From assembly GCF_900009135.1 (NCBI RefSeq), contig NZ_LT797700.1:30557-94556 (forward strand): a stretch of 64,000 bases of DNA. The letters are read 5' to 3'. Source of the DNA: Planktothrix sp. PCC 11201 (GTDB lineage Bacteria; Cyanobacteriota; Cyanobacteriia; Cyanobacteriales; Microcoleaceae). Each line of letters starts with the position of its first letter. The stretch's first letter is position 1. This document shows, piece by piece, positions 37,835 to 51,196 of this stretch. Below the pieces are notes generated by a model. The model was not told where the DNA came from. It saw only the letters and a list, made by a program, of their open reading frames with translations, and made no database searches. Both the position numbers and the translations under genes were made by a program.

Positions 37835-38809
37835 CTAAATTTGTGGTTTAGGATAATGAGTCTTAGTTTCTAACACATCATCTAATGTCACATCCCATCT
37901 AAATTTATCATAATTCACTTCTCTAACTTTTTTCGCTAAAATAGCAACTCCCCCAAAACCCGGTTGTGTTGCTAATAATTCTTGAGGTGAATTGACCTGA
38001 TCTAAATGAAAGCGTAAAGGCGCAAAAAGACCCGATTTTATAATTTCAAATCCTAAAGCTGGAGAAAACAATACCCTTAAACCTTCATCAGAAAAACGCC
38101 AAAAATCCCAGGGTTTTTCATGGAGAGGCCAAGCGAAATGACTACTGTTATAAGTAATACCACCCACTTCAAGCAGTTTGCTAATTTCTCTAGCTGCAAT
38201 CCAAGGCATTGCTAAATGTTCAAAGACAGAGATAGAAAAAATTGCATCAAATTTTTGATTCCCAAAGTATTGAGACAGTTTATGAGCATCTCCAACAACA
38301 TCTGTATTAGAGTCTGGATAATAGTCAAACCCAGTATAAGATTTACAATCAGGAAATAAAGGGCGCTTGCTGGCACTGCCAGGAGAAACAACGCGCGAAC
38401 CAATTTCTAAAACGTTTAAGTGATTTTCGTTAACTAAATTAATAAAATCATTAAATAAACCGCCAGCATCAATATAGTCTATAGGGGGCAGAGGCAATGA
38501 CCCATCAAAAACAAGTGTTTTTTGATAAGTTTCACCTTGAGCATGAGTATTCAATGTGACTTGATGTTGGGTTAAGCGCGGGAGATGAACCACAAAACCA
38601 CAATTTTGGGTTTGATACTGGGGATAAATCGCAGCGACATCAGGACGAGGATACCATGCAGTAATTGGGACTCTATTCCTATCTACAGAAATTTCTACTT
38701 GGTCTAATGCTCCTTTTTTAGAAATAAGCCAGCCTCTAATGGTAATCGAGTAGTCATTTGACCACGATTCATCCACTGCTAAAATAATTTTTTCATCTTC
38801 TACAAGCAT
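37835..38809 (-). CDS. Methyltransferase with N-terminal GW/RPDV module (copy 1)
   Basis: The 324-residue protein has two parts. Residues 1-100 contain the module with IRGWLISKKGALDQVEIS, AWYPRPDVAAIYPQ and NCGFVVHLPR. From about 110, a class I methyltransferase-like domain has LNVLEIGSRVVSPG, DVVGDAHKLSQYF and the Met/Trp-type FDAIFSISVFEHLAMPW. The GxG of motif I is replaced by LEIGSR, so cofactor binding should be tested. ATG 38809 is preceded by AAGGAAAAG. The paralogue lies directly upstream with 23 bases between them, so they form a pair in one transcript. The target is unknown, but the neighbours point to a glycan or lipid substrate. Confidence 0.85.
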   Translation of the reverse strand: MLVEDEKIILAVDESWSNDYSITIRGWLISKKGALDQVEISVDRNRVPITAWYPRPDVAAIYPQYQTQNCGFVVHLPRLTQHQVTLNTHAQGETYQKTLVFDGSLPLPPIDYIDAGGLFNDFINLVNENHLNVLEIGSRVVSPGSASKRPLFPDCKSYTGFDYYPDSNTDVVGDAHKLSQYFGNQKFDAIFSISVFEHLAMPWIAAREISKLLEVGGITYNSSHFAWPLHEKPWDFWRFSDEGLRVLFSPALGFEIIKSGLFAPLRFHLDQVNSPQELLATQPGFGGVAILAKKVREVNYDKFRWDVTLDDVLETKTHYPKPQI

Positions 38810-38832: not shown

Positions 38833-39807
38833 TTAACGCTGGGGATAATGACTATTCTGATCTAAGACTTCTTCTAATTTGACATTCCACTTGAATTCAT
38901 TATAATTTACGGCTTTAACTTTTCTAGCAAGAATGGAAACATGAGTAAAAACAGGAAAACTTGGTAAACGTTCAAGATTAGGACTTAACTGATCACTATA
39001 CAAACGGACAGGTTCATGAAAAGCAGATTGAATGACTTCAAATCCCAAAGCAGGTGAAAACAAAATCTTCAGACCCGCATCACAATACCGCCAAAAATCC
39101 CAAGGAAGCTCATGGCTGGGAAAAGCAAAATGGGTTTGGTGAAATGTTACACCCCCTACTTCAAGCAGTTTACTAATCTCTAATGCTACAACCCAAGGCA
39201 TTGCTAAATGTTCAAATACTGCTAGAGAAAATATAGCACCAAATTTCTCTTTTTCAAAGTATTTAGATAACTGGTGTGCATCTCCTACAACATCTGTATT
39301 ACTGTCTGGATAATAATCAAATCCTGTGTAAGAAGATGCTCCTTGAAAAAAAACTCTTTGACTGTTAGTTCCAGAAACAACCATACGTGAGCCAATTTCT
39401 AAAACTTTTAAGTGATTATTATTAACAATTTTGATAAAGTCATGGTAAAGACCAGAACCATCAGGGAAAATGTTAGGATCAGGTGGCTGTGGTAATGACC
39501 CATCAAAGAAAACAGTTTTATTAAAAGTTTTACCTTGACCTTCAGCATTAAATGTAACCTGATGTTTCGCAATACGGGGGAGATGAACGACAAAACCACA
39601 ATTTTTTGTGTAATATAGGGGATATACTGCTTCGACATCTGGACGGGGATGCCAGGAAGTTATGAGAACACTATTACCTCCCACAGAAATTTCTACTTTG
39701 TCTAAAGCACCCTTTTTTGAAGTAATCCACCCTCTTAAACCGATTGCATGATCATCTGACCAAGATTCATCTACTGATAAAATCAAGTTTTCGTCTTCTA
39801 CCAACAT
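38833..39807 (-). CDS. Methyltransferase with N-terminal GW/RPDV module (copy 2)
   Basis: This 324-residue protein is paralogous to the next gene downstream over its full length (RGWITSKKGALDKVEIS, WHPRPDVEAVYP, NCGFVVHLPR, LKVLEIGSRMVVSG, GAIFSLAVFEHLAMPW). Equal lengths and 23-base spacing indicate a tandem duplication that has diverged, clearly since the two N-terminal halves differ by scattered substitutions. Function is inferred as for its copy. Start ATG 39807. The upstream gene is the TPR-GT2 fusion, 73 bases away on the same strand, so a common transcript is likely. Confidence 0.85.
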   Translation of the reverse strand: MLVEDENLILSVDESWSDDHAIGLRGWITSKKGALDKVEISVGGNSVLITSWHPRPDVEAVYPLYYTKNCGFVVHLPRIAKHQVTFNAEGQGKTFNKTVFFDGSLPQPPDPNIFPDGSGLYHDFIKIVNNNHLKVLEIGSRMVVSGTNSQRVFFQGASSYTGFDYYPDSNTDVVGDAHQLSKYFEKEKFGAIFSLAVFEHLAMPWVVALEISKLLEVGGVTFHQTHFAFPSHELPWDFWRYCDAGLKILFSPALGFEVIQSAFHEPVRLYSDQLSPNLERLPSFPVFTHVSILARKVKAVNYNEFKWNVKLEEVLDQNSHYPQR

Positions 39808-39880: not shown

Positions 39881-42800
39881 TTAATCCTGAACCTTAATAC
39901 TAAAGTTCTGACAAACTCTTGTCAAGTGAGGACTATAACAAGGGTCATTATCAATATACTTGTGCCAACGTCCTTCAATGATTTTTGATTCTCGGTTTAG
40001 GCGTTCTTTCTTTTCCGGTGTATCTTCATAACCTCGACTTTTTGATTCATGATGATAAAGTGTAACATGAGGTAAGTACAAATTACGATAACCTTTATTT
40101 AGCATTTTTAAACACAAATCTACATCATTATAAGCTACGGTCAACTGTTCATCAAAACCTCCAATTTGTTCAAATACTTCTCGCCGACACATCAAGCAAG
40201 CTCCTGTAACCGCAGAAACATTATTAAACCCAATAACATTGCCAAAATATCCAGGGATATCAGAAGACATGGCATAATACCCATGACCAGCAACCCCACC
40301 TAAACCCATCACAACTCCGGCGTGTTGAATCGTATTATCTGGGAATAATAATAATGCTCCTACCGCACCGATTTGAGGACGTTGGACTTGTTCTACCATC
40401 GCATTCATCCAGTCAGGATTAATCACTTCGGTATCATTATTTAAGAATAGCAGATAATCTCCCGTTGCTTGACTGACTCCATAATTATTAATGATGGAGA
40501 AGTTAAAGGGAATATCTAAACGATAACATTTAAACCGTGAGGGTTCCTGAGAACTCCACTTAGAAAACACTTTAAATGTATAGTCTTGAACACTGCCATT
40601 ATCAATCACAATCACTTCATAGTTAGGATAGGTTGTTAGAGTAAAAATAGACTCTAAACATCGGTCTAAAACTTCTCCTAAATCTCTTGTTGGAATAATG
40701 ATGCTAACCTTCTTATCATCCGTAATTTCATACCGGACTAAATGATGTCCTAAAAACCCTGGAACTCCTGTTACTATTCCTGTTTCTCCTCGTCTATCTA
40801 TAGCATCCTGAATCGCTTTTTCTGACGCTTCATAAGCATAGGGTTTGGCTTCACTTCCCCCTGCGGTGGAGCCGGAGTGCATTCGCCAGTGATATAAAAC
40901 TTTGGGAATATGGGCAATTTTTTGAGTTTTTTCGGTAAATCTCAACACTAAATCATAATCTTGAGCGCCTTCATATCCGATTCTAAAACCTTTAATTTCT
41001 TCTATAATAGAACGTCGGTAGGTTCCTAAATGACAGGTGTACATCCGTGACAAAAAGGATTCAGGACACCATTCCGGTTTGAAGTAAGGATTAATTAAGT
41101 TACCATTGGGACTAATTTTATCTTCATCGGAATAAATCATATCTAAATCAGGATTCCGATTTAATAATAAAGCGACTTCATACAACCCATCGGGAGTAAT
41201 TAAATCATCATGATCCAATAGGGTAATAAATTCTCCAGTTGCTAATTCTAATGCTGAGTTAGAGGATGCAGAAATATGACCATTTTCTGTTCTATAAATA
41301 ACTTTTATTCGATAATCTTTAGCTTGATATTCTTCTAAAACCTTCTTGACATGGGGAGAGGGAGAAGCATCATCAGCAATACAAAATTCCCAGTGGGGAT
41401 AAATTTGATTAATCACAGATTCTATGGCTTCTCGGAGAAATTCTTCTGGGGTATTATAAACAGGCATAATCACGCTGAATACGGGTTTATACCTGAATAA
41501 TTCCATCGTTTCTGCCATTTTTCTTAAATCTGCTGCTCTGGGAAAGTTCTTTTCTCGCCAGAGTTTGTACATATAATCTTCAACTAAAATATGCTCTAAA
41601 AGTGCTGTTTTTAAGCCGTTGAAATCAATTCCTAATGCGGGATCAAGTTCGGATGCTCGTCGATAATGATGTAGAGAATCTTCTATTTTACCTTGTTTAG
41701 CAAGTGCTGTTGCTAAGTTACAATGTGACCAACCAAAATGGGGGTTAATTTCTAAGCATTTGCGGTAAGTTGCGATCGCTTCTTCTGCATTACCTTGTTT
41801 TTCTAAAGTATCACCTAAATTATGATAAGACCAGTAAAAACCAGGATTGAATTCAATCGCTTTTTTATAAGATAAAACCGCTTGTTCAAATTTCTTTTGG
41901 CGTTGTCGAATATCCCCTAAATTGTGATAGGAACCAAAAAAATCAGGGTTTAACTCAATCGCTTTTTGATAGGTTTTTGCTGCTTCTTCTAACTTACCAA
42001 TTTTTTCTAAAGGTTCTCCTAGCCGATGATAAATATCCGATGAATTTGGGTTAATTTCTAAGGCTTTCTGGTAAATCGCGATCGCATCTTCAAACTCACT
42101 CATCCTGACAAATGCTTCTCCCAACTTTAGTAATAGTTCAAAGTCTCGGGGGTCAGCATCTTTAACTTTTTTATAATAAATCAGAGCTTGTTCACGCTGA
42201 TTTTTATTCCATGATAGATTAGCGTATTTCCAACATAAATCTAGGTTATCTGGCTGGGATTTTAATAACGTTTGATAAGCTTCAATATCATCACCATTAA
42301 GTTCTATCGTTTTTTGATAATATTGATTTGCTTTTTGTAAATCGCCTGGGGTTCCTCGGTGTTTTAAAGCATCGGCTAACCGAGGATAAATATTGGTTAA
42401 ATTAGGGTTCAATTCTAATACTTTGGAATAGGAAGCGATCGCAGCGTCCCATCGTTCTAATTTAGCTAAAACCTCCGCAAAACTCTGATGACATTCGGCT
42501 GAATCAGGATTTAATACAATTGCTTGGGAATAAGCAGAAACTGCATTTTCCCATTGATTGAGTTGAGCAAAAACATTACCTAAACCGTGATGAAATATCG
42601 CTGCATTAGGTTTAATTTGAATAGCTTGGGAATAGGCATCAATGGCTTGATTCAACTGTTGACAATGACAATAAACATCTCCCAGTGCATGATAGATTTC
42701 TGGTGATTTAGGATTAAATTCTACAGCTTCTAACAATATCTTTAAGGCATCTTCAAACAAACCTTTTTGAACTAATATTTTACCTAATATTCCATAAGCA

Positions 42801-43345
42801 TCTCCTAAATTGGGATTGAGATCAATCGCTTTTCGACAAGAATCTATGGCCTCATCCAGTTGACCCCTTTGGGCTAAGGCTTCTCCTAAATATTGATAAG
42901 CGATCGCATCTTCTGAATTAAGTTCCAGAGCTTTCTGATAGCAACTAATTGCTTGTTCTAATTCACCTTGTTTAAATAGGGCTTTCCCTAAACTATTATA
43001 AAATTCTGTCACATTAGGATTAATAGCGATCGCACATTTTAACGCCTTAATTGTATCTGGTAAATTTCCCAATTTTAATAAAACTTCTGCTAATTGATAA
43101 TGTGACCAAGCTGAATCATTATTTAATTCAATAGCACGCTGAAAAGCTTGCATTGCCTCTGATAGTTGATTATTTTCTGCTAACACTTCCCCTAAATTAT
43201 GGTAAACCCAATGAAAATCAGGGCTTAATTGCGCTACTCTACGATAAGCAATAATAGCAGCTTGCAATTGACCCGATTGTTTCAGTTGATTGGCTTCTTC
43301 AAGTAAATTCGTAGCTGTTTTGAAGTTGTTGGATTTAGATAGCAT
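39881..43345 (-). CDS. TPR protein fused to two GT2 glycosyltransferase domains
   Basis: The 1154-residue protein starts with about fifteen TPR units (residues 10-575), then a helical linker (YKLWREKNFPRAADL). The first GT2 domain (about 620-860) has FSVIMPVYNTPEEF, the D-D pair IADDASPS and LLDHDDLITPDG. The second (about 875-1130) has VSIIIPTRDLGEVL, NGSVQDYT and FLNNDTEVINPDWM, ending GFDEQLTVAYNDVDLC. GT2 enzymes are inverting, with nucleotide-sugar donors; two domains in tandem suggest alternate additions to one chain. The TPR part may hold an acceptor. ATG 43345 is used. It is the intact form of the pair split at 45690, and is closely related to it. Confidence 0.92.
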   Translation of the reverse strand: MLSKSNNFKTATNLLEEANQLKQSGQLQAAIIAYRRVAQLSPDFHWVYHNLGEVLAENNQLSEAMQAFQRAIELNNDSAWSHYQLAEVLLKLGNLPDTIKALKCAIAINPNVTEFYNSLGKALFKQGELEQAISCYQKALELNSEDAIAYQYLGEALAQRGQLDEAIDSCRKAIDLNPNLGDAYGILGKILVQKGLFEDALKILLEAVEFNPKSPEIYHALGDVYCHCQQLNQAIDAYSQAIQIKPNAAIFHHGLGNVFAQLNQWENAVSAYSQAIVLNPDSAECHQSFAEVLAKLERWDAAIASYSKVLELNPNLTNIYPRLADALKHRGTPGDLQKANQYYQKTIELNGDDIEAYQTLLKSQPDNLDLCWKYANLSWNKNQREQALIYYKKVKDADPRDFELLLKLGEAFVRMSEFEDAIAIYQKALEINPNSSDIYHRLGEPLEKIGKLEEAAKTYQKAIELNPDFFGSYHNLGDIRQRQKKFEQAVLSYKKAIEFNPGFYWSYHNLGDTLEKQGNAEEAIATYRKCLEINPHFGWSHCNLATALAKQGKIEDSLHHYRRASELDPALGIDFNGLKTALLEHILVEDYMYKLWREKNFPRAADLRKMAETMELFRYKPVFSVIMPVYNTPEEFLREAIESVINQIYPHWEFCIADDASPSPHVKKVLEEYQAKDYRIKVIYRTENGHISASSNSALELATGEFITLLDHDDLITPDGLYEVALLLNRNPDLDMIYSDEDKISPNGNLINPYFKPEWCPESFLSRMYTCHLGTYRRSIIEEIKGFRIGYEGAQDYDLVLRFTEKTQKIAHIPKVLYHWRMHSGSTAGGSEAKPYAYEASEKAIQDAIDRRGETGIVTGVPGFLGHHLVRYEITDDKKVSIIIPTRDLGEVLDRCLESIFTLTTYPNYEVIVIDNGSVQDYTFKVFSKWSSQEPSRFKCYRLDIPFNFSIINNYGVSQATGDYLLFLNNDTEVINPDWMNAMVEQVQRPQIGAVGALLLFPDNTIQHAGVVMGLGGVAGHGYYAMSSDIPGYFGNVIGFNNVSAVTGACLMCRREVFEQIGGFDEQLTVAYNDVDLCLKMLNKGYRNLYLPHVTLYHHESKSRGYEDTPEKKERLNRESKIIEGRWHKYIDNDPCYSPHLTRVCQNFSIKVQD

Positions 43346-43557: not shown

Positions 43558-45522
43558 TTAAGGGTTAATCTTTAGTTTTACTTTTGCAAATTTAGCATAA
43601 GTTCCCTCTTTTAGAACAGCTTGGAATAACAATTCTGTTTGTTCAGACAAATTTCTGAGTTCAATTGTTTCGCAAAATCCACAAAACTCTGAATTTAGGT
43701 TTTCAGGATGTAGTAAACCAACATCAGGACGGGGAAAGTTAGCTGGAATTTCCTTTATTAACTGGCCATGATTCCCAATAATTTGAACTGCGGTTATTTT
43801 CTCCTGCTGTCCGAGTACCCAACCTTTAAAATTAATTTCGCTAATTCCCCAATAAGTTTTAATTTCAGGTTTATCTATCGCACAATCCTGTAACACTATA
43901 TCATCAAATTCTATAAAATTACCAAAAATTTCTACTTCAGCAAATTGCCTTAAACTATAATCAGATGCGGATAACGTTAAATTATGATTATAGCAAGGAT
44001 CGTGATCAACATAGCGTTGCCATCTTTGCCGAGTAATTGTCACTTCCTGCATAAATCGTTCTAGCTTATCTGGTGTTGTATCATAACCCCGACTCTTGGA
44101 TTCATCATGATATAAAACAACGTGGGGTAAATAAATATTCCGATAGCCCTGTTCAACTATTTTTAAGCAGAAATCAACATCATTATAAGCCACGGCTAAC
44201 TGTTCATCAAACCCTCCCACTTGTGTAAATATTTCTCGCCGACACATCAAACAAGCTGCCGTCACCGCCGAATAATTACTAATAGAAATAATTTGACCAT
44301 AATATCCGGGGTCTGTTTCCGATGCCATCCGGTGACTATGGGCGGCAAAATGACCAATTCCCACCACAACACCAGCGTGTTGAACGATTTTATCAGGATA
44401 ACGCAATAACGCACCCACCGCACCAATAGAAGGCCGTTGCGCCTGTTCTAGCATGGCATTAATCCAATCAGGATAAATCACTTCGGTATCATTATTTAAG
44501 AATAGCAAATAATCCCCGGTGGCTTTACTAACGGCGTAGTTATTAATCTTAGAAAAATTGAAAGGAATATCTAAAGAATAATATCTAAACCGATTCGGTT
44601 CTTTTTCTTGCCATTTTTCTAAAATTTCCTGGGTTTGTACTTCCGTACTTCCGTTATCAATGACAATCACTTCATAATCAGGATAGATACTTAGGGTAAA
44701 GATAGATTCCAAACAGCGATTTAAGATTTTTCCTAAGTCTTTAGTCGGAATAATAATACTAACCCGTTTGTAATCTAAAATTTTATAGCGAACTTGATAA
44801 TGTCCTAAATACATCGGCACATCTTTAACAATTCCGGGTTCTCCCCTGCGGTTAATTGCATCTTGTAACGCCCGTTTAGCGGCTTCATAAGCATAGGGTT
44901 TCGCCTCAGTACCTCCGGCGGCAGAACTATTATGAATTCGCCAATGATAGAGGATTTTAGGAATATGAAAAATCTTATCGGTTTTTTCGGTAAATCTCAA
45001 GACTAAATCATAATCTTGACTGCCTTCATATCCAGTTCTAAATCCTCCAATTTGACTAATAATTTCCCGGCGATAAACTCCAAAATGACAGGTATACATC
45101 CGAGATAAAAAGGAATCAGGACACCAATCAGGTTTAAAGAAATGACCCGTTAATTCTCCCTTTTCATTCAGTTTATCCTCATCGGAATAAATCATATCCG
45201 CGACGGGATTTTGATTCAATAAACTCACGACTTCATATAAAGCATCGGGAGTCAAAACATCATCATGATCTAATAAACCGATAAATTCTCCCGTTGCTAA
45301 CTCTAAAGCAGAATTAGAAGTTACAGAAATATGACCGTTTTTAGTTCTAAAAACGACTTTAATTCGGCTATCTTTCTGTTGATATGCTTCTAATATGGGT
45401 TTGATATGGGCTGCAGGAGAGGCGTCATCCGCAATACACAATTCCCAATTAGAATAAACCTGATCTAACACCGATTGAATCGCTTCATGTAGAAACGTTT
45501 CAGGGGTGTTATAAACAGGCAT
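43558..45522 (-). CDS. Double GT2 glycosyltransferase, probable C-terminal half of a frameshifted TPR-GT2 fusion
   Basis: From ATG 45522 the 654-residue frame has two GT2 domains (MPVYNTPETFLHEA to about 230; VSIIIPTKDLGKILNRC, NNDTEVIYPDWINAM from about 250) and a C-terminal GW/RPDV module (KGWVLGQQEKI, FPRPDVGLLHP, FCGFCETIEL). The ATG lies inside the first beta strand of the GT2 fold, with no ribosome site, so it is not a credible start. The frame is open upstream, through YDQLYQAWLKYN and FSYQPLISII, to the A10 run at 45691. No start codon occurs in that extension. The likely gene product is translated as a continuation of the TPR gene upstream, by a -1 shift. Confidence 0.85.
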   Translation of the reverse strand: MPVYNTPETFLHEAIQSVLDQVYSNWELCIADDASPAAHIKPILEAYQQKDSRIKVVFRTKNGHISVTSNSALELATGEFIGLLDHDDVLTPDALYEVVSLLNQNPVADMIYSDEDKLNEKGELTGHFFKPDWCPDSFLSRMYTCHFGVYRREIISQIGGFRTGYEGSQDYDLVLRFTEKTDKIFHIPKILYHWRIHNSSAAGGTEAKPYAYEAAKRALQDAINRRGEPGIVKDVPMYLGHYQVRYKILDYKRVSIIIPTKDLGKILNRCLESIFTLSIYPDYEVIVIDNGSTEVQTQEILEKWQEKEPNRFRYYSLDIPFNFSKINNYAVSKATGDYLLFLNNDTEVIYPDWINAMLEQAQRPSIGAVGALLRYPDKIVQHAGVVVGIGHFAAHSHRMASETDPGYYGQIISISNYSAVTAACLMCRREIFTQVGGFDEQLAVAYNDVDFCLKIVEQGYRNIYLPHVVLYHDESKSRGYDTTPDKLERFMQEVTITRQRWQRYVDHDPCYNHNLTLSASDYSLRQFAEVEIFGNFIEFDDIVLQDCAIDKPEIKTYWGISEINFKGWVLGQQEKITAVQIIGNHGQLIKEIPANFPRPDVGLLHPENLNSEFCGFCETIELRNLSEQTELLFQAVLKEGTYAKFAKVKLKINP

Positions 45523-45558
45523 GATAATACTAATCAGGGGTTGATAGCTAAAATCCGT

Positions 45559-45603
45559 CGTAGTAAGCCCTTCAGGGCTATAAGGCGTGAACGCCTCACT
45601 ACG
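45559..45603. repeat. Palindromic repeat element, translated in frame
   Basis: CGTAGT (45559-45564) and ACTACG (45598-45603) are outer arms. Inside are two hairpins, AGCCC-TTCA-GGGCT and AGGCGT-GA-ACGCCT. The 45-base unit is a multiple of three. It is read on the minus strand, within the linker before GT2, as part of a Ser/Thr/Pro-rich peptide. The palindrome type is known as dispersed intergenic repeats of cyanobacteria. Confidence 0.8.
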
Positions 45604-45680
45604 GGTTGTGTTGTATTTTAGCCATGCCTGATAGAGTTGATCATACTCGGATTGAGATTGGGAGACGGAAAAGTAGGGGG

Positions 45681-48209
45681 TTAACCTAGCTTTTTTTTTT
45701 CGACAATTCCCTCTAATTTTTCAATTACTTCAGGATGATCGGGTTCTAACTGCAATGCCATTTGATAGAATACGATCGCACCATCCAAATGATTATGATT
45801 AACTAAAGTATTCGCTAACTGAATATACAATTGGGGATCATCGGGTTTAATCTCAATGGCTTTATGATAAGCCGCCACATGATCGGGGTTTTCTTCAATC
45901 ACTTGATAATAATAATCCAAGGATTCCTGTAAATCTAATTTAGCTCGATTTCTCAACGCATCGGCGAGTTTTTCTTGAATATTCGGTAAATCGGACTGAA
46001 CTTTAATTGCACCGCGATAGGCTACAACCGCTTCTTCCCAATTCTCTAATTCCGTTAAAACTTTCCCTAAATTATAATGAGACCAAGGGAATTCAGGATT
46101 CAGTTTAATGGCATTTTGATAAGCAGGAATTGCTTCTTCCAACCGTTCCAAACTCACTAAAGCATCAGCCAAACTATTGTATGACCAAGAGTAGCTAGAA
46201 TCTAAAGCGATCGCATTTTGATAAGCAGAAATCGCGGCTTCCCACCGTTCTTGTTTAAAGAAAATATCCGCTAAATTGTTCTGTGTCCAGAACACACTTG
46301 GATTCAGTTCAATGGAACGTTGATAAGCAGTAATAGCAGATTCAAACTGTTCTTGATCTCGGAGTAAATCCCCTAATTTTTGATAAACTTCTGCTTGACT
46401 ATCATCAATTTCGGTTGATTTTTGATAGGCTTTAATTGCTGCTTCTGCTTCCCCAACTTTCGCCAGGGCATCCCCGAGCCCTTTATAGGCTTCTGCATCT
46501 CCACTGGGGTTCATTTGCACCGCCTGACGGAAGACTTGCACCGCTTCTTGCCAATTTTCCTGTTTAACTAAAACTTTTCCTAGCCCATAATAGGAAGAAA
46601 CCAATTTAGGATTCAAGGAAATGGATTTTTTGTAAATGTTAACCGCTTCTTCTAACCGCCACTGACGGTTGAAAATCTCTCCGATTTTATAATAAGCAAC
46701 GGCTTGATTCGGGTCTAATTCCAAGATTTTGTTATAAACTCGGATTGCATCATCCCAACGTTCTTGACGGCTGAATAAATCGGCAAACCCATAATAAAAT
46801 TCTAACTTAGAGGGTTCTAATTCTAAGGCTTTTTGATAGGAAAAAATTGCAGATTCAGTTTCCCCTTTTGCTTGATACAATTGCCCTAATTGATAATAGA
46901 TTCCTGCCCACTGAGGATTGAGTTGTAACGCCTTTTGATAGGCTGTGAGTGCCTCATCAAATTTACCTTGTTTAAAGCGAGTATTACCTAAATTAAAATG
47001 TTCCTCCGGTGTGGCTTTTTCCGGTTCCAAACTATAGGCTTTTTCTAAACATTGGGATGCCTGTTCTAACTGCCCCATTTGGGTGAGAATCTTAGCATAA
47101 TTACGATAAACTCCGGCAAAATCTGGTTTTAAACTAACAGCTTGTTGATAATAGGAGGCAGCTTTTTCTAAGCGTTCTTCCTGAGCATATAAACTGCCCA
47201 AATTCGCATAAACTTCGGGATATTGGGGTTGAATTTCTAAGGCTTTTGAATAACACCGAATTGCCGCCGACATTTCCCCTAAAATTTGTAACGCATTCCC
47301 TTGAATTTTATAGGCTTCTGCTAAATCGGGCTGTAATTTTAAGGCTTTTTGACAGGTCGCGATCGCTTGATCCCATTCCTTCAAGGCACAATAGGCTTGG
47401 GCTTGTTTTAAATAGGTTTGGGGATTATTGGGCTGATTCATCGGGGGTTTCGTATTATAACTCACCGTTTGCTGACGAGTTGCCCCGGCTAAAGTTTCTT
47501 GGGGTAATAATTCCCTGGCTGTGGCGGCGGCTAAGGTATCCGAGGGGGCTGAACCGATGGTCGGAGGAGTATTCAATGCGATCGCTTGACGGTAGACCTG
47601 GGTTGCTTCCTGGGCTTTTCCTTGGTCTTTGAGCAGAGTAGCCAAAGCTTGATGGGCCGTCGTCAAATTGGGATCAAGTTTAATTGCATTCCGATAGCAG
47701 ATCTGCGCTTCCTTGACCTGTCCCTGTTGTGCTAACTGCTGGCCAAGGTTAAAATGTTCTTCTGCGGTGGCTTGATTCGGTTCTAATGTCAAGGCTTGAT
47801 AGAAGGCCTGTGCCGATTTTTGGGGGTCGCCCAGTTGTGTCCAAACTTTGGCTAAATTCCGATACGCCCCGGCGAAATCCGGTTTCAGGGTGACAGCTTT
47901 TTGATAACAAGCGATCGCCTGTTGCCATTGTTGTGATTTGGCATACAGACTTCCCAAGTTAGCATGAACTTCTGGCCAATTAGGTTGAAGTTGCAATGTT
48001 CGGCTATACCAGTCTTGCGCGTCCTGTAATTTCCCCTGTCTTTGGAATATATCCGCCATCAGTTTATAACCGGGGGCATAATCAGACTGAATTTGCAATA
48101 ACTGGTTACAAGCCTTAATTGCATCCTCAAATTGCCCTTGATTAATATAGATTTCTGTTTGTTGATGGAGAAACTGTACACTGCGGGCGCGAATTTCGTT
48201 AGGTGACAT
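45681..48209 (-). CDS. TPR protein, probable N-terminal half of a TPR-GT2-GT2 fusion
   Basis: The frame gives about 842 residues from ATG 48209 (MSPNEIRARS); a GTG at 48257 would add 16 residues. It is made of about twenty TPR units in two blocks, with a low-complexity Thr/Pro/Gln linker around residues 235-275. It ends at a TAA just after a run of ten A's. The downstream frame carries the GT2 domains that follow TPRs in the homologous 39881-43345 gene. If a shift occurs at A10, the fusion would be about 1570 residues. If not, this protein is a scaffold. Either way, the C-terminal VEKKKLG is atypical for a natural TPR end. Confidence 0.85.
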   Translation of the reverse strand: MSPNEIRARSVQFLHQQTEIYINQGQFEDAIKACNQLLQIQSDYAPGYKLMADIFQRQGKLQDAQDWYSRTLQLQPNWPEVHANLGSLYAKSQQWQQAIACYQKAVTLKPDFAGAYRNLAKVWTQLGDPQKSAQAFYQALTLEPNQATAEEHFNLGQQLAQQGQVKEAQICYRNAIKLDPNLTTAHQALATLLKDQGKAQEATQVYRQAIALNTPPTIGSAPSDTLAAATARELLPQETLAGATRQQTVSYNTKPPMNQPNNPQTYLKQAQAYCALKEWDQAIATCQKALKLQPDLAEAYKIQGNALQILGEMSAAIRCYSKALEIQPQYPEVYANLGSLYAQEERLEKAASYYQQAVSLKPDFAGVYRNYAKILTQMGQLEQASQCLEKAYSLEPEKATPEEHFNLGNTRFKQGKFDEALTAYQKALQLNPQWAGIYYQLGQLYQAKGETESAIFSYQKALELEPSKLEFYYGFADLFSRQERWDDAIRVYNKILELDPNQAVAYYKIGEIFNRQWRLEEAVNIYKKSISLNPKLVSSYYGLGKVLVKQENWQEAVQVFRQAVQMNPSGDAEAYKGLGDALAKVGEAEAAIKAYQKSTEIDDSQAEVYQKLGDLLRDQEQFESAITAYQRSIELNPSVFWTQNNLADIFFKQERWEAAISAYQNAIALDSSYSWSYNSLADALVSLERLEEAIPAYQNAIKLNPEFPWSHYNLGKVLTELENWEEAVVAYRGAIKVQSDLPNIQEKLADALRNRAKLDLQESLDYYYQVIEENPDHVAAYHKAIEIKPDDPQLYIQLANTLVNHNHLDGAIVFYQMALQLEPDHPEVIEKLEGIVEKKKLG
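45684..45704 (-). promoter_or_regulatory. Candidate -1 frameshift or slippage site (A10)
   Basis: On the minus strand the TPR frame reads GTC GAA AAA AAA AAG CTA GGT TAA. The run of ten A's (45691-45700) includes a dnaX-type heptamer A-AAA-AAG in the zero frame, corresponding to plus positions 45690-45696. A -1 shift, or one extra A in the RNA, makes the next codons GCT AGG TTA ACC and leads directly into the GT2 frame. Confidence 0.65.
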
Positions 48210-48251
48210 AGTTAGTTTCAGTTCAGACAATTGAAATTTTATCACTAAGTG

Positions 48252-48330
48252 AACCACGAAGGCACAAAGGCACGAAGATTTACACCCAGTCTGTCCACAT
48301 CCTCACTTCTTAGCGTCTCCGTGTCTTTGT
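48252..48330. repeat. Imperfect inverted repeat, dispersed-repeat type
   Basis: ACCACGAAGGCACAAAGG near 48254 is partly complementary to CTCCGTGTCTTTGTG ending 48330. A similar TTGTGTCTTTGTGGTTAAA occurs near 30343-30362, so this is a dispersed element in the 48210-48364 spacer. Confidence 0.5.
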
Positions 48331-48364: not shown

Positions 48365-51196
48365 TCATTTCAACATTTTTAATAGCCGTTTCAAAGAAAC
48401 AAGATTCACCCAAATATCTTCTGTCAAGGAATTTTGATACATTAACCCCCGTAGGGGATAGCAAGAAAATCCTTCCCCCGTCAGGCAATAATGTTCCAAT
48501 TCCAGATACTGACTAATCACCCAATAATAATGACGATTATAGTGGGCAGACATCCACTCAATTACTTGGGTTCCGGGTTGACAAAACAGAATATTGGTTA
48601 AACCGCTACCATGGGCTCCCATAATTACCTTAGCTTGAGCAAACAAAGCCACCTGTTCCGTAAAGGATAGGGTTTCGAGTTGCACGGTCACAAAACCCCA
48701 AGGACGAAGGGTTTCAATCACCTCTTTCTCATTTAAAACCCGACGATATCTGGCATTTCCCCGACTAATATAAATCCGTTCGGGATAATTCCTCCCCGGA
48801 GTTTGACCATCAGGAAGAAACCAACGGCGTAAAGTATCAATCGCCCAGGGTTGTAACCATCCCATATATCCCGCCCAGGAGGGAACAATTAATTGCTGTG
48901 CCTGAATATGGGGAAACTGATCACTTTCGAGGATTTTAAACTCTGGAATTCCTAAGCGAGTTAGGGTTTCCCGTTGAAAGGGCGCTTGGTAACTATTCAC
49001 CAAAAACCAATCGATTTGATTGAACTTAATCCCACTTTGGCGCAAGAGTTCCAGTCGCGGTAAAATATCCACCATCCAATGAAAATAGACATTCCCCGAT
49101 AACCCCGACAATACCGCGACCCGACCTTCAATCTGTTGCAGGGGGGGTAATTGTGACTGTTGAAACACTTGATGCTGTTGGGGGTCATAACTGGGACAAC
49201 AGGGAAGGGGAGCGGGATATTCCCGGGAGACATCGGCTAATAGTTGATTATCGGGTGTAATAATGGCGATCGCTTTGCAAACCAGCCAATAATTCTGTTG
49301 GGGAACAATCCAGGCTCGTCCATTGGGAATGACCGCCACAAATAAGGGCGTTGAGGCCGTATTGTTTTTGGACACCAAACCTTTTTCAATCCCATGTCCC
49401 AAATTCTGCCACTGAAACGATTTGAACACACCTTTAAGACAGGGTTCACAATCCAACCCCCCGCATTGATTGGGTTTAGAGGGTGTCTGTTTCCAGTTAT
49501 CCAAGTTTTGGGAACCCAATAATTCTGATAGATCACAATAATGACTATCGCGTAAATTATTATTTGTCAGCCATGTTAGGGTTGAATCACAAACTCCTTG
49601 GGGAATATTTGTCCGTTGAATATAGGGCGCATTAGCCCATTCTTGCAGTAGGTTTAAGGTGGAAGGAGAGTTACTAACCCAGGACTGAAACCGACTATCT
49701 TGCTGTATCTGCAAAACCTGACTATAGTAATCGGTCGCAGATTCCCAATTGCCTTGTTTTTCCGTAATTATCCCCAATTGTAAATTCACTTCAAGGAACT
49801 GACTAGGGGAAAAAACAGACGACCGTTTGAGTAAAATTCGAGCCGTTTGATAAACTGTTAATGCGGCATTTAGTTGTTGGTTTTTCAATAAACAATTGCC
49901 CAATTTTAGATAAACTTCTACGGATTGAGGTTGAATTTGTGCTGCTTTTTGGTAGTAGCTCACTGCTTGATCAAACTTTCCGTAAATAGCTAAAGTATTT
50001 CCCAGGTGAAGATAGGTTTTATAGAGATGTTTATAGACCGTTTTACCCCCCCTAGCTCCCTCCTGGTCTGGGATAGGGACAGACACTTTCCCCTCCTGTT
50101 CATCAGAGTTATCAGTATCTGCCCCCCATTGGTAAGGGGGGAATAGGGGGGTATCATCCTGTTGTAATGCCGTGAGAAAATCAGCACAGGACTTTCGGGC
50201 TAAAGATAATTCATCTGATCCCGAAAGCTGCTGCATTCCCTGACAATAACCCTCTACAAATTTAGGTTCAAGGGAGATGACTTTTTTAAAACAACTCAAC
50301 GCAGCATCCAGTTTTCCTAAATTGAGTAAAGAAGCTCCACAGTCAATATAGGCAAATAGATTATCGGGTTCTAAATCAATAACTTTTTTAAAGTAATAAA
50401 CAGCATTCTTATGTTGATTTTGTTGCTGGAGAATCTTCCCTAAATTATTATAAACCAGAGGAAAATCTTCTTTGGTTTCTAGGGCCTGACGATAGGATTG
50501 AATGGCTTCTTTTATTTTACCTTGGGCTACAAATACTTGACCAATATTATTATAGGTTAAAGAATTTTCACTTTCAGTTTCATTATAAGTTAGACACCTA
50601 TTCCATGCTGCTAAAGCCCCGTCATAATCATTTGTTGCAAACAATAAACACCCTAAATTATTATAGGCATTTGCTAAATCGGGCTGAAGCTGAATCACTC
50701 GTTGATAGAGGGCGATCGCTCGTTTTGTATCTCCCAATTGTCCATAGGCCATGGCTAAGGCAAAATAGGAATGAACATGATTAGGATTTTGTTCTAAGGT
50801 TTTTTGATAGCATCGAATTGCTCTGGGAATATCCCCACTCCAGAAATATGCCTGACCCCATTGAAAATATAATTCTGTCCAACTAGGACGCAAATTTAGG
50901 GCTTTTTTATAACAGAAAAATGCTGGCTCAAACTCTCCTGTATTCCGTAAAACCTGAGCTAAATAGGCATAGGCTTCTACAAAATCCGGTTGTAATTTAA
51001 TTGCCTTTTTATAGGCAGAAATTGCTTCTGGAAATAGTCCTTGCACTTCATACCAATCCCCTAAAATTTTATAAGTTTGAGCCTGATCGGGATCTAGTGC
51101 TAAAATTTGCGAGATTGTCTGATGAGCTTCTCGCAGATTTCCCACATCTAAGTCAGCGATCGCCGATTGGATTAAGTCTTCAAGGCTTGGATTCAC
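48365..51196 (-). CDS. TPR protein with C-terminal GT61 (DUF563) glycosyltransferase domain
   Basis: The 943-residue protein starts at GTG 51196; no nearby ATG fits. Residues 10-510 hold around twelve TPR units, interrupted near 340-390 by a Gly/Pro/Asp-rich segment (PPYQWGADTDNSDE and IPDQEGARGGKTV) encoded by repetitive G/C-rich DNA. Residues about 620-930 form a DUF563/GT61 glycosyltransferase, with AVLSGLSGNVYFHWMVDIL, IYISRGNARYRRVLNE, and the diagnostic VIMGAHGSGLTNILFC. GT61 enzymes are xylosyl- or related glycosyltransferases. It belongs to the same cluster and lies upstream of the TPR gene at 48209, 156 bases apart. Confidence 0.9.
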   Translation of the reverse strand: MNPSLEDLIQSAIADLDVGNLREAHQTISQILALDPDQAQTYKILGDWYEVQGLFPEAISAYKKAIKLQPDFVEAYAYLAQVLRNTGEFEPAFFCYKKALNLRPSWTELYFQWGQAYFWSGDIPRAIRCYQKTLEQNPNHVHSYFALAMAYGQLGDTKRAIALYQRVIQLQPDLANAYNNLGCLLFATNDYDGALAAWNRCLTYNETESENSLTYNNIGQVFVAQGKIKEAIQSYRQALETKEDFPLVYNNLGKILQQQNQHKNAVYYFKKVIDLEPDNLFAYIDCGASLLNLGKLDAALSCFKKVISLEPKFVEGYCQGMQQLSGSDELSLARKSCADFLTALQQDDTPLFPPYQWGADTDNSDEQEGKVSVPIPDQEGARGGKTVYKHLYKTYLHLGNTLAIYGKFDQAVSYYQKAAQIQPQSVEVYLKLGNCLLKNQQLNAALTVYQTARILLKRSSVFSPSQFLEVNLQLGIITEKQGNWESATDYYSQVLQIQQDSRFQSWVSNSPSTLNLLQEWANAPYIQRTNIPQGVCDSTLTWLTNNNLRDSHYCDLSELLGSQNLDNWKQTPSKPNQCGGLDCEPCLKGVFKSFQWQNLGHGIEKGLVSKNNTASTPLFVAVIPNGRAWIVPQQNYWLVCKAIAIITPDNQLLADVSREYPAPLPCCPSYDPQQHQVFQQSQLPPLQQIEGRVAVLSGLSGNVYFHWMVDILPRLELLRQSGIKFNQIDWFLVNSYQAPFQRETLTRLGIPEFKILESDQFPHIQAQQLIVPSWAGYMGWLQPWAIDTLRRWFLPDGQTPGRNYPERIYISRGNARYRRVLNEKEVIETLRPWGFVTVQLETLSFTEQVALFAQAKVIMGAHGSGLTNILFCQPGTQVIEWMSAHYNRHYYWVISQYLELEHYCLTGEGFSCYPLRGLMYQNSLTEDIWVNLVSLKRLLKMLK
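50044..50152. repeat. G/C-rich repeat inserted in frame in the GT61 gene
   Basis: The segment contains ACCCCCCCTAGCTCCC, TCCTGGTCTGGGATAG, GCCCCCCATTGGTAAGG and GGGAATAGGGGGGT. It interrupts the TPR array with no stop codon and no TPR consensus. The G/C-run style matches dispersed intergenic repeats. Confidence 0.6.

Follow-up and report, generated by a model that had tools for sequence, protein, structure and literature searches.

A run of ten adenines in Planktothrix sp. PCC 11201 joins the end of a TPR frame to a GT2 glycosyltransferase frame that lies in the -1 register, and we consider it very probable that this A10 is a functional recoding site. If the site is recoded functionally, transcription is probably the main step. 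For the locus as a whole, comparison with related genomes makes it likely that RNA-polymerase slippage adds one A and that the gene thereby has two products, a TPR protein and a TPR-GT2-GT2 fusion, with ribosomal -1 shifting perhaps contributing. A first-pass annotation of this DNA had proposed, as one of several readings, that programmed recoding gives both a TPR protein and a TPR-glycosyltransferase, and our comparison supports that reading. The features are listed here by their positions in the window, which is the whole 64,000-nt stretch of DNA that was analysed.

45691–45700, minus strand: A10 tract, the candidate slippage site; exactly ten A's in 9/9 covered Planktothrix genomes.
45690–45696, minus strand: heptamer A_AAA_AAG in the zero frame, a possible ribosomal -1 site; invariant in 9/9.
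45681–45683, minus strand: zero-frame stop TAA of the TPR frame; the same stop in 9/9.
45681–48257, minus strand: TPR ORF in the zero frame, 858 aa, with a putative GTG start that was mechanically listed.
45523–45690, minus strand: linker in the -1 frame, 56 codons; Y20, W23, N27, P51 and S54 invariant in 22 aligned sequences.
43558–45522, minus strand: GT2-GT2 ORF listed from its first ATG; if started there it would be without residues 53–56 of strand 1.
45710–45713, minus strand: GAGG, Shine-Dalgarno-like, 13 nt upstream of the heptamer, a candidate stimulator; kept in 9/9.
45559–45603, minus strand: REP-like palindromic repeat, in frame in the linker, with a species-dependent copy number.
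39881–43345, minus strand: paralogue, TPR-GT2-GT2 in a single continuous frame.

Read directly from the window, the zero frame at the junction runs GTC GAA AAA AAA AAG CTA GGT TAA on the minus strand. The ten A's are as first annotated, but the TPR gene does not stop right after them, since the TAA lies two codons past the AAG that closes the run. The heptamer A_AAA_AAG does stand in the zero frame and a -1 shift there does enter the GT2 frame, both of which had been pointed out before; the -1 codons run from GCT at 45690 and stay open through the linker to the GT2 stop at 43558. We infer that RNA polymerase slips on A10 and that a share of the transcripts carries eleven A's. Transcripts with A10 would give the 858-aa TPR protein, and those with A11 would be read on through the linker and two GT2 domains, producing a fusion that, counted from the listed start, is about 1,566 aa long. 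A ribosomal -1 shift on A_AAA_AAG, perhaps aided by the GAGG, would yield this fusion too and may contribute to its amount. The short product may serve as a TPR scaffold or partner that binds other partners or competes, and the long product would be a TPR-tethered double GT2 that probably acts in surface glycan synthesis.

All ten Planktothrix genomes (10/10) matched in a genus-wide search. One of them (G006) was dropped from the counts because its contig ends before the junction, which leaves nine covered genomes. Counting the A's in related strains had been proposed as a check, and the run is exactly ten A's long in 9/9, followed by the invariant GCTAGGTTAA. The zero frame ends at the same TAA, the +1 frame reads KKKS and then stops, and the -1 frame remains open despite a linker of 50–73 codons, each in 9/9 genomes. 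Over the 1-kb junction region the other eight share 83–93% identity with the window. Four of the nine are named records (P. rubescens PCC7821, on a 5.46-Mb contig, P. paucivesiculata PCC 9631 and two metagenome bins); these records (L002–L005) and the genomes G002, G003, G005 and G008 were counted once. Around the site 11/13 codons are invariant, a level reached by 7/1532 windows with the site's own included, and when only synonymous columns are taken 11/12 are invariant, as in 10/777 windows; the 13-codon window was picked after the alignment had been seen. The junction's A codons alone are weak evidence, because 41/59 conserved Lys columns in Planktothrix are all-AAA in the nine genomes anyway.

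The scarcity of long A runs gives this constancy its setting. The A10 is the sole run of at least nine A's on either strand of the window, where A 9-mers match twice against a mean of 15.15 in shuffles, so that long A runs are depleted. Runs of at least ten A's occur at nine separate places in the 5.99-Mb genome, and of the eight others only an A11 is in sense orientation within an ORF of more than 100 codons. A coding sample from the same genome (280 predicted ORFs, 330 kb) held no A run of ten or more where 4.4 were expected from synonymous shuffles, and four A9 runs where 7.0 were expected; KK[KN] was encoded with AAA AAA in 12/26 cases in that sample. A large share of bacterial genomes is described as showing selection against A/T runs once these reach nine (PMC1088944). 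As controls we followed two coding A9 runs, hand-picked from five listed, which were kept as A9 in 1/10 and 4/10 genomes (own included), and the A11 region, to which one other genome matched over part of its length, with the run gone. Thus, three control A runs were not kept, whereas the junction run was kept in 9/9. The A11 itself is in frame in a 720-codon ORF (L051 position 1501, G000:C23). As in slippage genes, the junction holds a homopolymer of about nine or more, its tract is kept while such tracts are avoided or lost, and the downstream frame is conserved.

Beyond the genus, 41/61 genomes of the family matched at E<=1e-150, 31 of them outside Planktothrix. We read 29 loci from 28 of these 31 genomes (G011, G012 and G035 are not in the count); they fall into few clades and hence are not independent. 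Except for G060 they have continuous frames of about 1,040–1,610 codons, the frame of G020 being truncated where its contig ends. KK[KN] stands at the TPR block's end in 24/29 loci; 23 of these 24 encode its first two Lys residues as AAA AAA within a run of A8–A10, and G049b has AAG AAA AAA and a run of A6. KK[KN] is missing from G021 (A7) and from G014, G045, G048 and G049a, which apart from G021 have a shorter TPR and no such motif. In 7 of the 24 a T or C replaces the G, leaving a tract without A_AAA_AAG. Two single-contig genomes of genus g8 carry A10 at the same place and in frame with GT2, and the TPR block of G018 (g8) is 55% identical to, and colinear with, the window's. Genera g5, g10 and g11 have A8 or A9 in frame, G049b excepted, and in genera g7 and g9 the corresponding TPR block closes with A9 or A10 (A7 in G021), after which come what appear by eye to be further TPR-like repeats and then a GT2 of the paralogue type.

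Because these homologues are continuous and yet carry A8–A10 at the same TPR end in 23/29 loci, the tract is, judged by the loci read, conserved more than the frame across the related genera. The first-pass annotation had held that homologues in one unbroken frame that lack an A run would speak against recoding; such loci do exist (6/29 in the family, with no run of at least eight, and most of those read outside it), but 22/29 family loci are continuous with A8–A10. In the g7/g9 genes and in g8 both other frames stop within 4–13 codons after the tract, and in g5/g10/g11 one other frame runs for 26–73 codons in 5/12 loci. We considered immediate stopping of both other frames as a general feature of the tract and gave it little weight, given the 5/12 exceptions and a chance of 12–23% that both stop within 7 codons.

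The order-wide search matched 90/291 genomes at E<=1e-190, and nine loci beyond the family were read, in eight of which a comparable tract is absent. G263, G086 and G124 carry an A8 elsewhere in the ORF; the one in G124 falls within the linker, 17 codons short of GT2. In G118 an A9 lies well past the point where GT2 begins. G196:C4 (L144), from another family, has an in-frame A10 (IKKKLA) at codon 769 of a 1349-codon ORF, 50 codons before GT2; G068, of the same family as G196, has no run of at least seven A's in its ORF.

The strongest alternative is dnaX-like programmed ribosomal -1 frameshifting alone, in which tRNA-Lys slips on A_AAA_AAG, the GAGG stimulates the shift and RNA polymerase copies A10 faithfully. 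The heptamer and the GAGG 13 nt upstream of it are both invariant in 9/9 genomes, the codons around the site are unusually fixed, and in E. coli A_AA.A_AA.G ranks among the most efficient motifs (PMC4066793). However, the three best heptamers of this kind shift at about 0.3% in E. coli when stimulators are lacking (PMC4066793), the GAGG pairing is short, and we found no structure in the first 86 nt downstream (fold without pseudoknots, z +0.93). A consensus fold over 7 of the 9 Planktothrix loci came to -2.7 kcal/mol with no compensatory changes. Extending the stretch to 146 nt, which takes in the REP-like repeat, gave z -1.71, with 10/200 shuffles as stable; the REP-like hairpin was considered as a stimulator and probably does not act, being about 90 nt downstream, variable and not seen in G009. 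Furthermore, four A's beyond what the heptamer needs are kept, and the 7/24 KK[KN] family loci with T or C for G have the tract but not the heptamer. The emphasis first placed on the dnaX heptamer is thus borne out only as regards its invariance in the genus and the GAGG upstream, and not by the absence of structure from the first 86 nt downstream, the excess A's and the presence of the tract in other frames.

On this evidence ribosomal frameshifting as the sole mechanism is unlikely. RNA-polymerase slippage is favoured at least as much because the tract exceeds the need of the heptamer, shows no structure in the first 86 nt downstream and persists in other frames and before other bases. The direction of slippage also fits, since insertions are reported to prevail in A/T runs during transcription (PMC5574713). 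E. coli ribosomes also slide on iterated AAA codons (PMC4363877).

Phase variation, in which the tract would change length in the DNA between cells so that each clone would produce one of the two, TPR protein or fusion, would suit a homopolymer beside a probable surface-glycan enzyme, and tract length does differ between genera. One locus of genus g11, G060:C280 (L104), has an A10 at about 2689 on the reverse strand, with 777-codon TPR and 719-codon GT2 frames whose split needs one A fewer, set against A8 or A9 in frame in its relatives; this split is seen in a single draft genome, where error, mutation and variant are all conceivable. Against phase variation, A10 is present in all nine covered Planktothrix genomes, one per species, among which the fused state would be expected at least once. 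The phase-variable switch suggested in the first-pass annotation thus found no support in a length that is constant across nine species, and we regard it as very unlikely.

Equally improbable is that the GT2 is an independent gene, reached from a non-standard start or by termination-reinitiation after the TAA. The two frames are adjacent, and the linker of some species does contain a GTG or TTG. In the window, however, the -1 frame has no ATG, GTG or TTG from the A run to the ATG at 45522, and the nine genomes share no start codon before this ATG. The Pfam GT2 match begins three residues upstream of it. In our AlphaFold2 model (mean pLDDT 75.6, built on a 22-row alignment) the ATG is residue 57, within a strand predicted at 53–59, and a linker helix is placed with low confidence at 13–27 (mean pLDDT about 45–49 in residues 11–30). 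Five residues that precede the ATG, Tyr20, Trp23, Asn27, Pro51 and Ser54, do not vary among the 22 sequences of the alignment (A1, 22 of 47 fetched homologous loci). Translation begun at the ATG would leave out conserved parts of the GT2, namely these residues and part of strand 1, and other genera have one continuous frame. We therefore rejected a start of its own for the GT2; the earlier remark that this frame has no start codon before an ATG inside the GT2 core strand agrees with both sequence and predicted structure.

The -1 frame also appears to be translated and selected. Median dN/dS was 0.147 for TPR and 0.155 for GT2 (36 pairs each), 0.169 for the first 34 linker codons and 0.285 for the whole linker including the repeat (35/36 pairs, one pair being dropped for the linker as it gave no usable dS). 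These values indicate that the GT2 frame is under purifying selection. Linker length varies, by eye, largely through copies of the REP-like repeat, with the frame kept in all nine genomes. A dead or decaying gene, or a one-base assembly error, as the frame broken in the DNA as assembled might suggest, has next to no probability left and is refuted at genus level by a constant A10, constant frames, the same stop in 9/9 covered genomes (named records of different origin included) and the GT2-frame dN/dS. The one-base error or mutation allowed for at first falls with it: sequencing error and a one-strain mutation are rejected by the likeness of A10, TAA and open -1 frame in 9/9, and chance assembly error at the junction is, on this comparison, excluded.

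RNA-polymerase slippage remains our preferred reading, and the family offers a possible history for it. Tentatively, and with rather less confidence than for the Planktothrix site itself, we suggest that a slippage tract closing the TPR block was kept across the family (Planktothrix and six related genera) while the GT module and the frame changed, so that the default product flips. Some other genera would then make the fusion by default and a truncated TPR protein as the minority, Planktothrix would make the TPR protein by default and the fusion as the minority, and in each the cell would use polymerase slippage to balance free TPR scaffold against TPR-tethered glycosyltransferase.

The phylogeny bears on where the frame changed. 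The nine Planktothrix GT2s form one clade (100/100) in a tree in which several deep branches are weak, and the neighbouring gene at 39881–43345 groups with the g7/g9 genes. This neighbour has TPR and two GT2-type Pfam matches in one frame; the first-pass annotation had taken it as the intact homologue, and it has the TPR-GT2-GT2 order described, but it is a paralogue and not the closest counterpart. Among the TPR blocks compared, that of g8 is the closest from outside the genus, yet the g8 GT2 is not sister to that of Planktothrix in the tree. The Planktothrix frame change therefore probably accompanied an alteration downstream of the tract rather than within it.

Ribosomal -1 frameshifting in E. 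coli dnaX is stimulated by a Shine-Dalgarno-like element upstream and a stem-loop downstream. Planktothrix has the same heptamer A_AAA_AAG and a Shine-Dalgarno-like element upstream, but differs in that no downstream stem-loop was found, the A tract is longer and the shift would lead to the longer product, whereas the -1 shift in E. coli dnaX makes the shorter one (PMC4066793). Thermus thermophilus dnaX uses transcriptional slippage on an A9 (PMC1088944); with its other frames stopping soon after the tract, it resembles the in-frame homologues of the related genera, and its unslipped frame encodes the long product, whereas that of Planktothrix encodes the short one.

The secretion-system gene tssM offers a further parallel. 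In Citrobacter rodentium tssM1 (A11), slippage gives about 20–25% of the long form and both forms are needed, while in Yersinia pseudotuberculosis tssM3 (A9) slippage gives the short form (PMC4256274). The likeness lies in an A tract, a stop soon after it and a short and a full-length protein; the tssM cases were demonstrated by mass spectrometry, blots and reporters, whereas the Planktothrix TPR-glycosyltransferase is known from sequence comparison only. By analogy, the mirror relation between tssM1 and tssM3, long against short, may also hold between Planktothrix and the related genera. For IS elements, including those of Nostoc sp. PCC 7120, slippage on A8–A10 has been proposed (PMC1088944). 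There too an A8–A10 tract joins two frames in a cyanobacterium, although in mobile elements and not in a chromosomal gene kept across the Planktothrix genus.

To our knowledge, proven slippage genes outside mobile elements are few. A literature search for frameshifting and Planktothrix returned no papers. Searches on slippage, frameshifting or recoding together with glycosyltransferase, TPR or cyanobacteria, mostly at the level of listings, gave no report of this gene and no cyanobacterial cellular gene with transcriptional slippage. In the main text of the GeneTack paper TPR is absent and 'glycosyl' occurs once, as DNA glycosylase. Ribosomal frameshifting is described in other settings, for a carboxysome gene (PMC5009743) and for chlD (PMC9227772). 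The type of device is known; what appears to be new, within the literature searched, is the gene, its lineage and the family-wide tract. Nine natural copies with a fixed tract, together with in-frame relatives, make the locus directly testable. Gene callers would split such genes in two, which would leave this enzyme, and perhaps others, misannotated.

The neighbours of the locus on the window comprise a TPR-GT61 gene (48365–51196), the TPR-GT2-GT2 paralogue and a probable methyltransferase (38833–39807), whose Methyltransf_11 match is barely above the cut-off. The ORFs at 37835–38809 and 38833–39807 (both minus strand) are adjacent and by eye similar, each of 324 aa, and their N-terminal part resembles, again by eye, the C-terminal extension of the GT2 ORF.

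The REP-like repeat in the enzyme's linker is 45 nt long and palindromic. By eye, the linker holds two copies in G003, G005 and G007 and none was seen in G009. Among the matches listed, short matches to it (about 80–98% identity) lie at many places in the ten Planktothrix genomes, with tandem arrays in G004:C41 and G007:C28.
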